Part shown: piece after piece, positions 36,393-38,811 of the stretch
How the letters are laid out: each line of letters starts with the position of its first letter
Numbering within the stretch: position 1 is the stretch's first letter
DNA from: Thermovirgaceae bacterium
GTDB lineage: Bacteria; Synergistota; Synergistia; Synergistales; Thermovirgaceae
DNA: 49,761 nucleotides
Reading direction: 5' to 3'
NCBI GenBank assembly: GCA_030656095.1
Contig: JAUSOU010000009.1
Coordinates: 1-49,761 of the forward strand
The notes under the pieces: generated by a model
What the model was told of the DNA's origin: nothing
Databases searched by the model: none
The model's input: only the letters and a program-made list of their open reading frames with translations
Position numbers and translations under genes: made by a program

Positions 36393-37637
36393 TCATGCCA
36401 CCTTCGTTACCCTGACGGCCTTTCCCGCCGAGCGTTCCAGCGTTCCCGGGGCCAGCAGCCTGAATCCGACCCTTATGCCCAGGTTCTCGTGCAGCTTTTT
36501 CGACGTCTCCTTCTCCATCTTCGCCATCGCCGCCTCTTCGAGTTCACATTCGGACTCACAGAGGACATTCAGCTCCTTCAGGCCGTTCGGTTGAAAGACA
36601 TCCAGGCGGTAGTGAAGGGACAGACCATCGATCTTGCCCAGGACGGCCTCTACCTGGGAGGGAAAAACGTTGACTCCCCTGATTATCAGCATGTCGTCAC
36701 ATCGCCCCTTGATCCTCTCGAGGCGCAGGTCATCCCTGCCGCAGGCGCATCTTCCCTGTATGAACCTCGTCAGGTCACGCGTGCGGTAGCGGATAACGGG
36801 CATGGCCTCCTTGGTCAGGGACGTTATGACCAGTTCGCCCTCATACCCCTCGGGCAGTACGCGGCCGGTGACGGGATCCACTATCTCGAAGAGGAAGTGA
36901 TCCCAGTTCGGGTGAAGCCCCTCCCTGTGAGGGCATTCCATTGCGACACCCGGCCCTATGACCTCCGAGAGGCCGTAGGAGTCGACGGCTATGACCCCGA
37001 GTTCCCATTCTATGCGGTCCCTCATCTCCTCCGTCCAGGCCTCGCCTCCAAGGATCGCGAGGCGCAGGCGCAGTTTGCCTGTGAGACCGTTCTTTCGTAT
37101 TTCCTCGCAGAGGTGCAGGGCGTAGGACGGAGTGCTGGTGAATACGGTGGTCCCGAGGTCCTCCATCAGCATGATCTGACGGTCCGTGAATCCTCCGCCG
37201 GTGGGAACGACCATCGCTCCGAGCCGTTCTGCCCCGTAGTGAAATCCGAGGGCTCCGGTGAAAAGGCCATACCCAAGGATCACCTGGAATATGTCGCCCG
37301 GAACGACACCAGCCGTCCGGAGGCAATTCTCCATGCACTCCTCCCATGTCCTGATATCGTTTCTCGTATAGGGAACAACGGTGGGCTTTCCCGTCGTGCC
37401 GGAAGATGCGTGCACGCGCACGACATCTTCGCTGTCACAGGCAAGGATTCCCATCGGATAGGCGTCCCTGAGGTCACTCTTGGTCATGAATGGGAGCCTG
37501 TGAAGGTCTTCCGCCGAAGCGATGTCTTCGGGGCATATACCCATATCCTCCATGCGGGATCTGTAGAAGGGAACCTTTTCCCACATGGCCTTCACCGTTT
37601 TATTCAAGCCTCTCGACCGCCGCTCCTCTTTCTCCAC
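36393..37637 (-). CDS. paaK: Phenylacetate-CoA ligase family protein
   Basis: A 414-aa ANL-superfamily enzyme: FYRSRMEDMGICPEDIASAE and LPFMTKSDLRDAYPMGILAC near the N-terminus, the P-loop VHASSGTTGKPTVVPYTRND, then ILGYGLFTGALGFHYGAERL, DSYGLSEVIGPGVAMECPHR and YRTRDLTRFIQGRCACGR. It should form aryl- or acyl-CoA from an acid, ATP and CoA; in amino-acid fermenters this family handles arylacetates from Phe/Tyr/Trp breakdown. The GTG start at 37637 has AAGGAG 10 bases upstream. The gene lies directly behind an attenuator with an aromatic leader peptide, which supports a link to aromatic amino acids. Confidence 0.93.
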   Translation of the reverse strand: MEKEERRSRGLNKTVKAMWEKVPFYRSRMEDMGICPEDIASAEDLHRLPFMTKSDLRDAYPMGILACDSEDVVRVHASSGTTGKPTVVPYTRNDIRTWEECMENCLRTAGVVPGDIFQVILGYGLFTGALGFHYGAERLGAMVVPTGGGFTDRQIMLMEDLGTTVFTSTPSYALHLCEEIRKNGLTGKLRLRLAILGGEAWTEEMRDRIEWELGVIAVDSYGLSEVIGPGVAMECPHREGLHPNWDHFLFEIVDPVTGRVLPEGYEGELVITSLTKEAMPVIRYRTRDLTRFIQGRCACGRDDLRLERIKGRCDDMLIIRGVNVFPSQVEAVLGKIDGLSLHYRLDVFQPNGLKELNVLCESECELEEAAMAKMEKETSKKLHENLGIRVGFRLLAPGTLERSAGKAVRVTKVA

Positions 37638-37682
37638 TGCGCCCAGCTCCTTTTATGGAAATGACGAAAAAAAATAAAAAAA

Positions 37683-37712
37683 GGCCGGGGTCCCCTCTTG
37701 GGAACCCCGGCC
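37683..37712 (-). terminator. Attenuator terminator before paaK, with alternative antiterminator
   Basis: On the minus strand, GGCCGGGGTTCCC and GGGGACCCCGGCC pair over 13 positions (one U-G) around AAGA and are followed by TTTTTTTATTTTTTTT (37682 down to 37666). This is a strong intrinsic terminator located between the leader peptide and paaK. The left arm (37700-37714) can instead pair with GTGGGACCCCCTC (37747-37759), which overlaps the leader codons just after the Tyr triplet, forming a competing antiterminator. Confidence 0.9.
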
Positions 37713-37729
37713 TCGGAAAGCATAGACGC

Positions 37730-37822
37730 CTAAGCGTCGGCCCTCAGAGGGGGTCCCACGTTGGCGTAATAATAGGTAAAAGCGAAGCTGGTGCAGGAAG
37801 CATTTGCTGATTTTCTGATCAT
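37730..37822 (-). CDS. Aromatic leader peptide (30 aa) for the paaK attenuator
   Basis: A 30-codon frame with ATG at 37822, 5 bases after GGAGG, and TAG at 37730. It begins MIRKSANASC and its middle reads TSFAFTYYYANVGP, with Phe at 13 and 15 and three consecutive Tyr codons (TAT TAT TAC) at 17-19. A promoter sits just upstream, and the stop lies in a GACGC-TTAG-GCGTC hairpin. This is the standard layout of amino-acid attenuation: ribosome stalling at the Tyr codons would free the antiterminator strand. Read-through into paaK when charged tRNA-Tyr (or tRNA-Phe) is low is inferred. Confidence 0.8.
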   Translation of the reverse strand: MIRKSANASCTSFAFTYYYANVGPPLRADA

Positions 37823-37852
37823 AGTTGCCTCCGAATTTGTGTATTAAAAAAA

Positions 37853-37881
37853 TTTATATCACTTTTTCAGGGACAGGTCAA
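37853..37881 (-). promoter_or_regulatory. Promoter of the leader/paaK transcript (TTGACC-17-TATAAA)
   Basis: On the minus strand TTGACC (37876-37881) and TATAAA (37853-37858) are separated by exactly 17 bases, each matching 5 of 6 consensus positions. The transcript would start near 37846, about 24 bases before the leader ATG. Confidence 0.75.
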
Positions 37882-37899: not shown

Positions 37900-38076
37900 A
37901 AGAAGGGCCGTAACTCGTTACGCGTTACGCGTGACTCGCAAGACCAAATACACGAGCGTGATTCGTAAATCGTGACTGGAAAGATCAGCAGAAGAACCAG
38001 GTGGCTTGACAGTCTTTTATTTTGAGCTTTTCGATTTTTACCCGTCACGAGTCACGAGTCACGAGTTACGAGTTAC
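37900..38076. repeat. Clustered GTAACTCGT/GTCACGAGT repeats
   Basis: CCGTAACTCGTTACGCGTTA and CGCGTGACTCGC lie at about 37910-37940, GTGATTCGTAAATCGTGACT at about 37959-37978, and CGTCACGAGTCACGAGTCAC then GAGTTACGAGTTACC at 38043-38076. The last tandem runs into the phosphoesterase gene, whose stop codon is in the repeat. No other ORF is seen here. Confidence 0.7.
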
Positions 38077-38811
38077 CATGTCCCCGGCATCGTTCAGCCT
38101 GAGCATCTCCAGGCGGCCGTCGAAGTGCTCAACAAGCGCCGAGCAGTTCTCCACCCAGTCGCCGCAGTTGCAGAAGAGAACATCCCTGATGTCCCTGATG
38201 ACCGGGTTGTGGAGATGCCCGCATATCACGCCGTCCAGACCGGATTTCTTGACCTCTCCGATGATCCTGCCCTCGAAGCCGCTGAAGGCCCCTGCGATCG
38301 CCTTGAATTTCTTTTTCAAATACCCCGCGAGCGAGCGTTTCCTCAACCCCGCAAGGGGAAGGAGTGCGTTGATGCCGGCGTTCACCCAGAGCGCCATATC
38401 GTAAGATCTCTCGGCCAGTGCGTTCAGGGCGCCGGATCTGTGGACAACGAGGTCGAACTCGTCACCGTGGGAGACCAGAAAACGCCTTCCGTCAGCGGTT
38501 CTGTGAAGAGCTCTATCGCGAAGAAGGATCTTTCCAAGGCTTCCGCCAAGGAAACGGTCCATAAAAGCATCGTGGTTGCCGGGAAGGAATGTAACTTTTG
38601 TCTCCCCGGCCAGGGTCCAGAGCCGCCTCAGAACATCCATATGGGAAGCGCTCAGCTGTGACGGACGGGAGACCTTCCATCCGTCGATGACATCCCCCAC
38701 AAGGTAGAGGAAATCGCACTGGACCCTCCCAAGAAATGTCTGGAGCGGTTCGACGCGGCTCCACCTGGTCCCCAGGTGCAGATCGGAAAGGAAAACAGAA
38801 CGGTATTTCAT
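38059..38811 (-). CDS. Metallophosphoesterase, UDP-2,3-diacylglucosamine hydrolase (LpxH)-like
   Basis: A 250-aa calcineurin-like phosphoesterase of the LpxH/COG2908 group. Motifs are MKYRSVFLSDLHLGTRWSRV, FLYLVGDVIDGWKVSRPSQL, VTFLPGNHDAFMDRFLGG, FLVSHGDEFDLVVHRSG and GVICGHLHNPVIRDIRD, providing the two-metal site. LpxH cleaves UDP-2,3-diacylglucosamine in lipid A synthesis, but members of this group also act on other substrates. The start is the ATG at 38811 with GGGGAGAG about 10 bases upstream; an in-frame extension to 39036 would run through the divergent gene. It ends ..MVTRNS through the repeat at 38059-38070. Confidence 0.85.
   Translation of the reverse strand: MKYRSVFLSDLHLGTRWSRVEPLQTFLGRVQCDFLYLVGDVIDGWKVSRPSQLSASHMDVLRRLWTLAGETKVTFLPGNHDAFMDRFLGGSLGKILLRDRALHRTADGRRFLVSHGDEFDLVVHRSGALNALAERSYDMALWVNAGINALLPLAGLRKRSLAGYLKKKFKAIAGAFSGFEGRIIGEVKKSGLDGVICGHLHNPVIRDIRDVLFCNCGDWVENCSALVEHFDGRLEMLRLNDAGDMVTRNS

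Follow-up and report, generated by a model that had tools for sequence, protein, structure and literature searches.

The DNA analysed here (the window) is a stretch of 49,761 nucleotides. The genome that contains it (G000) is a draft of 169 contigs with a completeness of 89%, and its near relatives are Synergistota records. All the features described below lie on the minus strand. A sigma-70-type promoter (37853-37881) is formed by the sequences TTGACC (37881-37876) and TATAAA (37858-37853), separated by a 17-nt spacer. It is followed by a Shine-Dalgarno sequence, GGAGG (37828-37832), with similar GGAGG-type sites being present in most orthologs, and by a leader peptide ORF of 30 codons (37730-37822, ATG at 37822) that encodes MIRKSANASCTSFAFTYYYANVGPPLRADA* and is conserved in 19 leaders of the ligase clade described below. 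The leader peptide contains FAFTYYYANVGPPLRADA, whose aromatic codons lie in the series TTC GCT TTT ACC TAT TAT TAC; the Tyr control codons TAT TAT TAC are located at 37766-37774. An intrinsic terminator (37667-37714), which is kept in the orthologs, consists of a 15-bp stem (37714-37681) and a T-rich tail (37682-37667). The Shine-Dalgarno sequence AGGAG (37647-37651) then precedes a gene encoding a PaaK-like arylacetate-CoA ligase of 414 amino acids (36393-37637, GTG start at 37637), which was assigned on the basis of profile TIGR02155, its PDB relatives and its clade. A preliminary description of this DNA had listed the promoter, the GGAGG sequence, the 30-codon ORF, the terminator and the ligase gene, and each of these elements was recovered at its place.

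Upstream of this promoter, short imperfect repeats of the CGAGTCACGAGTTACG type are present at 37905-37970 and 38040-38078. Repeats of this type are also found upstream in a relative of the same genus (L005).

Alternative structures of the leader RNA

Folding of the leader RNA (196 nt) yields -65.5 kcal/mol, as compared with -48.4 kcal/mol (SD 3.9) for dinucleotide shuffles, which is 4.4 SD better. Besides the terminator, three structural elements can be distinguished. The antiterminator strand GUGGGACCCCCUC (37747-37759) and the 5' terminator arm (37700-37714) are predicted to pair in the nascent RNA; this arm, which was assigned by fold prediction and a pairing permutation test, would be used by both structures. 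A central hairpin, GACGC-UUAG-GCGUC (37725-37738), which is predicted to form over the leader stop codon, is a component of the antiterminator. Finally, an upstream hairpin of the 1:2 type (37733-37762; AACGUGG..CC / GG..CCGACG) competes with the antiterminator, and the two are mutually exclusive. The pairing of 37759-37747 with 37714-37700 proposed in the preliminary description is indeed present, but it extends further than was proposed and includes the central hairpin around the leader stop codon.

Comparison of leaders provided evidence for these pairings. An alignment of 23 leaders gave the upstream hairpin consensus RRCGYGG..CC / GG..CCGRCGYY, and compensatory changes were observed at four of its eight pairs, both U-A/C-G and G-C/A-U, with the change from U-A to C-G occurring in 10 sequences. 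When the partners of the antiterminator duplex were swapped among 21 leaders, the mean energy was -19.2 kcal/mol for mismatched partners versus -25.0 kcal/mol for matched ones, and none of 20000 permutations was as low as the real pairing.

We also predicted the structures of the nascent RNA for different positions of the ribosome. With a ribosome on the control codons, the GGGWCCC.. strand pairs with the 5' terminator arm, enclosing the stop-codon hairpin. For the window, this stalled-ribosome fold has a predicted energy of -33.0, as stable as the terminator (-32.7), and it is predicted to drop to -13.5 with the ribosome at the leader stop codon. A similar stalled fold was obtained for the 14 leaders tried, including leaders of the Ile and Val types described below. 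Prediction and covariation together thus describe an antiterminator that is exclusive with the terminator and is left free by a stalled ribosome. The minimum-energy structure of a plain fold without ribosome is the antiterminator as well; without translation, termination would therefore require that the upstream hairpin form first and would depend on folding kinetics.

The locus combines a translatable leader, containing codons of the regulated amino acid, with an intrinsic terminator in front of a structural gene, and we consider it very probable that it attenuates transcription in response to Tyr. If charged tRNA-Tyr is abundant, the ribosome would pass the codons TAT TAT TAC and reach the stop codon, the antiterminator would be disrupted and the terminator would halt transcription. 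When tRNA-Tyr is uncharged, we infer that the ribosome stalls at the Tyr codons, which would make the antiterminator strand available for pairing with the 5' terminator arm and allow the ligase gene to be transcribed.

Tyr and Phe leaders of paralogous ligases

Orthologs were drawn from 60 relatives, and the regions upstream of the ligase genes were read for the presence of leaders. The 15 ligases of the window's clade that were sampled first are all preceded by an aromatic leader that contains at least two Tyr codons; examples of Tyr-type leaders are FTYYYANVGPPLRADA, VYFYASVGPPLRAGA, FYYFTGVGPPQRFDA, YYYVYGSAGSPGDRSGA and EYYYASEGPHWRASA. A promoter of the form TTGAC(N)/17-nt/TATA(A/C)(A/T) is present upstream of 11 of these 15 leaders; one of the four leaders without it is located on a contig that offers little upstream sequence. 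Four additional Tyr-type leaders were found through the RNA model (see below) alone, bringing their number to 19. Every ortholog examined has retained the alternative stems along with the leader ORF and its Tyr codons, and in 19/19 Tyr-type leaders, the antiterminator strand follows the last aromatic codon at a distance of exactly three codons. The upstream comparison that had been proposed as a check on the preliminary description thus yielded terminator, ORF and Tyr codons together in all 19 cases, and no leader that kept the terminator without the ORF or the Tyr codons. Outside Synergistota, the attenuator leader was not detected upstream of homologs in records of Clostridia, Thermodesulfobacteriota, Proteobacteria, Verrucomicrobia and Bathyarchaeota.

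The window's genome encodes a paralogous ligase (59% identical), which is preceded by a Phe leader, MTKHPHLSAVSNGFFFFTNVGPARRIDG (GFFFFTNVGP). The relatives of this paralog, too, are preceded by Phe leaders, none of which contains more than one Tyr codon. At least two Tyr codons are present in 15/15 Tyr-clade leaders versus 0/13 Phe-type leaders (Fisher 3e-8, a value that overstates independence because the leader sequences are related). Phe codons also occur in Tyr-type leaders. Hence, of the control by Tyr- and Phe-tRNA that was originally suggested for the window's ligase, the Tyr part (possibly Tyr plus Phe) is upheld, but Phe has a paralog of its own.

Two further arrangements were observed. 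On contig C76 of genome G007 (L123:1313-1424 and downstream), the Tyr leader and the terminator are intact and the ligase gene is apparently internally deleted, with the beginning of the protein joined directly to its end (..GLNKTV|RVTKVA), which is either a recent gene loss or an assembly join. Genomes G053 and G049 contain two tandem ligase genes (L022/L023 with L072/L073), each having its own leader, first of the Phe type and then with Tyr-Ser-Tyr; this lineage is apart from the main Tyr clade.

The ligase and its metabolic context

The window's ligase scores 473.4 bits against TIGR02155, below the equivalog cut-off of 646.3. It is homologous over nearly its full length to PaaK1 and PaaK2 (PDB 2y27 and 2y4o), as are the Tyr-leader ligases in general, and judged by its sequence it is a member of the PaaK-type ANL ligase superfamily and a relative of PaaK, not a TIGR02155 equivalog. 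The Tyr-leader ligases group in one clade (support 98/96); 0/500 shuffles were as clustered. The Phe-leader ligases do not constitute a single clade; they are spread over several of the remaining branches.

Fixed differences between Tyr- and Phe-type ligases are found at F117, L121, A129, T167, S168, A200, S220 and I227; the ligase of genome G037, which has a mixed Tyr/Trp/Phe leader, was excluded from this comparison. At position 220, Tyr-leader ligases have Ser, whereas Phe-leader ligases have Ile or Val. Alignment to PaaK1 placed L121 and S220 on Tyr141 and Ile241 (2y27 chain numbering), so that the Tyr-leader ligases differ from PaaK1 at both positions. We take Tyr141 and Ile241 to be aryl-pocket residues, which makes L121 and S220 candidate pocket positions. 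A change from Ile/Val to Ser would suit a hydroxyl-bearing substrate. Published papers confirm that the extent and polarity of the aryl pocket track specificity, and that much only. The L022 and L023 ligases of the separate lineage, which have the Tyr-Ser-Tyr leader (..VYSYP..), share Ser220, T167, F132 and A200.

In a forward test, the RNA model was run over 163 genomes of the order, which yielded five new ligases in four genomes. The four ligases with a Tyr leader have Tyr-type residues everywhere except at position 227, which varies, and the one with a Phe leader has Phe-type residues. Thus, the leader codons predicted the pocket type in 5/5 new ligases.

We then considered the pathways present in these genomes. 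Chorismate synthase is missing in seven Tyr-leader genomes that are at least 91% complete (G002, G005, G033, G047, G065, G066 and G070). In the first four of these, prephenate dehydratase is absent, and prephenate dehydrogenase is absent or has only sub-threshold matches. All three enzymes are encoded in the window's genome, and about 10 other Tyr-leader genomes also have chorismate synthase. An obligate role of the ligase in the window's genome was rejected because the chorismate route is present; the ligase route would there be a second or a salvage route. The alpha profile of the indolepyruvate ferredoxin oxidoreductase (IOR) has matches in 61/61 relatives, being over the curated cut-off in 55, and an aryl-CoA ligase and this oxidoreductase occur in the same genome. 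PaaA and PaaC were absent, by profile cut-offs, from 18/18 ligase carriers, which is different from the setting of PaaK1 and PaaK2, and no benzoyl-CoA reductase B was found above the cut-off in these 18 carriers. Therefore, a known ring-degrading use of the aryl-CoA is not visible.

From these data, the following route can be proposed. The ligase would most likely convert 4-hydroxyphenylacetate to 4-hydroxyphenylacetyl-CoA. An indolepyruvate-type ferredoxin oxidoreductase would then carboxylate this CoA ester, and an aminotransferase would complete the route to tyrosine. The paralog with the Phe leader would serve the same route from phenylacetate to phenylalanine. As far as sequences can tell, a role of the ligase in Tyr synthesis through reductive carboxylation is probable, and 4-hydroxyphenylacetate is reasonably likely to be its specific substrate. 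The reductive carboxylation of arylacetates envisaged in the preliminary description is therefore supported by ligase genomes lacking the chorismate pathway and by the absence of aryl-CoA degradation genes, and we infer the substrates and the direction of flux.

Related leaders in Synergistota and interpretation

A covariance model built from the leaders (R1) was searched against 61 genomes. Matches beyond the ligases carry swapped control codons in the common frame GYGGGWCC...GRCG. Leaders with IIII precede threonine/serine dehydratase genes, a leader with IIIIII precedes a 2-oxoacid:ferredoxin oxidoreductase gamma gene (PorC/KorC subunit), and leaders with VVLVLVLI precede ilvH, including one in the window's genome (contig C23) at a weak E of 0.05. 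A leader with FWYGYYF precedes a sodium:solute symporter gene, and further aromatic leaders precede genes for other membrane proteins. No IOR or aminotransferase gene was encountered among the R1 matches whose downstream gene was read. Rfam 15 gave no match in the window, and the score at the leader itself was sub-threshold noise. Eight related leader loci likewise matched none of its leader and riboswitch families (T-box, Phe_leader, Trp_leader and others), and membership of a known RNA family was rejected on the basis of these Rfam searches.

Several of these loci deserve description. On contig C4 of G037 (L174:2120-5213), the six-Ile-codon leader MLRSLNGNNIIIIIINAAPPRRIGD (L159, 331-438) is located before a three-gene 2-oxoacid:ferredoxin oxidoreductase cluster, in which the two genes after the gamma gene resemble the remaining subunits; this arrangement suggests isoleucine synthesis via reductive carboxylation, in a genome without chorismate synthase. 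The Val/Leu/Ile-rich leader on contig C23 of the window's genome (L167:379-493), SILIVVLVLVLISCGFPPGVPAD, precedes the gene for the small subunit of acetolactate synthase. Trp-Tyr-Phe leaders such as FWYGYYFRCVGPLGRTDV precede the sodium:solute symporter gene at six loci (L136, L138, L139, L140, L150 and L189), making this symporter a candidate aromatic amino-acid transporter. Phe-rich leaders at L162:302-410 and L164:273-376 precede type 3 solute-binding-protein-like genes, which could function in Phe uptake or encode cyclohexadienyl-dehydratase-like enzymes. Taken together, the targets of R1 leaders mostly constitute an amino-acid-starvation regulon and, as they are mostly synthesis and transport genes, their induction upon starvation makes sense. 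Attenuation by aminoacyl-tRNA supply, as first claimed for the window's leader, is thus supported by the paralog-specific codons (Tyr versus Phe), by covariation and by a leader family on amino-acid biosynthesis and transport genes.

These data bear on three other explanations. Strong terminators and short ORFs are common, and a simple terminator scan of the region showed no excess over shuffles, so that the terminator might belong to upstream transcription and the small ORF might be incidental. The dedicated promoter just upstream of the ORF, together with the conservation of ORF, Tyr codons, spacing and stems across several families, contradicts this and leaves it a negligible probability. 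The Pro-Pro in the partly conserved C-terminal tail GPPLRADA raises the idea of a TnaC-type arrest peptide, in which the nascent chain, through its GPP motif, senses an excess of an aromatic compound and induces a catabolic ligase. We consider this very improbable, because the tail varies widely (GSPGDRSGA, GASGRQSGV, GPHWRASA) while the RNA pairing is kept, the control codons change with the target gene, and leaders that share this frame but have Ile or Val codons are found on biosynthetic genes.

The attenuator could also be real and the ligase belong to another starvation response, for instance the recapture of arylacetates leaked from amino-acid fermentation into some other aryl-CoA product, with no Tyr being made. 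A catabolic reading is the usual one for the IOR of amino-acid fermenters, the ordinary route to Tyr is present in the window's genome, and the assigned substrate and product of the ligase are themselves deduced. On the other hand, the leader codons track Tyr and Phe separately, several carriers are devoid of chorismate synthase, the 18 carriers show neither PaaA/PaaC nor benzoyl-CoA reductase B above the cut-off, and the remaining genes with such leaders are mostly involved in amino-acid synthesis or transport, which makes this alternative rather unlikely. The best explanation, in which we have good confidence, is a Tyr-reading, ribosome-mediated attenuator in front of a ligase that would serve reductive aryl-acid synthesis of Tyr. 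As a broader proposal, we lean towards the view that many Synergistota have a dedicated reductive aryl-acid pathway to Tyr and Phe, with paralogous ligases for 4-hydroxyphenylacetate and phenylacetate that are each controlled by their own Tyr or Phe attenuator. This pathway would be the sole means of Tyr and Phe synthesis in lineages without the chorismate pathway, and the Ile-leader oxidoreductase of G037 suggests an analogous arrangement for isoleucine.

The trp, pheA, his and ilv attenuators of E. coli have a leader peptide rich in the regulated amino acid, exclusive antiterminator and terminator structures, and an upstream competing hairpin. The Synergistota leader shares these three features; it differs in phylum, in sequence family and in having an arylacetate-CoA ligase as target, and the GYGGGWCC...GRCG core recurs in the Tyr, Phe, Ile and Val/Leu leaders as well as in those of aromatic transport genes. 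The uORF attenuator candidates of PMC8632094, such as uORFC-8-2 (cysS) and uORFC-13-1 (Phe), were likewise found by comparative genomics, and their amino-acid codons are located close to a terminator or a regulatory stem, but they differ from the Synergistota leader in taxa, genes and sequence. According to the citation of Porat et al. in PMC4162585, aryl acids are precursors of aromatic amino acids in Methanococcus maripaludis and are linked to indolepyruvate oxidoreductase, and Phe synthesis from phenylacetate has been reported in the rumen (PMC7356843). Whereas the former pathway is archaeal and the latter is known as an activity, the genes in Synergistota are bacterial and have Tyr and Phe attenuators of their own. 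Our literature search did not retrieve a paper on attenuation of phenylacetate-CoA ligase genes; an earlier survey by the authors of PMC8632094, which included Synergistetes, was beyond its reach. The mechanism of attenuation is known, but the ligase target, the paired Tyr and Phe ligases and the modular Synergistota leader family appear to be undescribed in the searchable literature.

Phenylacetate-CoA ligases are normally annotated as catabolic. For the PaaK-like ligase studied here, the way in which the cell itself regulates the gene suggests the opposite, biosynthetic direction and indicates which amino acid is the likely product for each paralog, so that the leader codons act as a built-in substrate annotation. 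By swapping control codons, the leader family uses a single RNA frame for Tyr, Phe, Ile and Val/Leu genes and also for genes of aromatic transport. These results provide genes and a testable regulation for bacterial aromatic amino-acid synthesis from arylacetates, and they suggest that genomes called aromatic auxotrophs for want of the chorismate pathway may not be auxotrophs.
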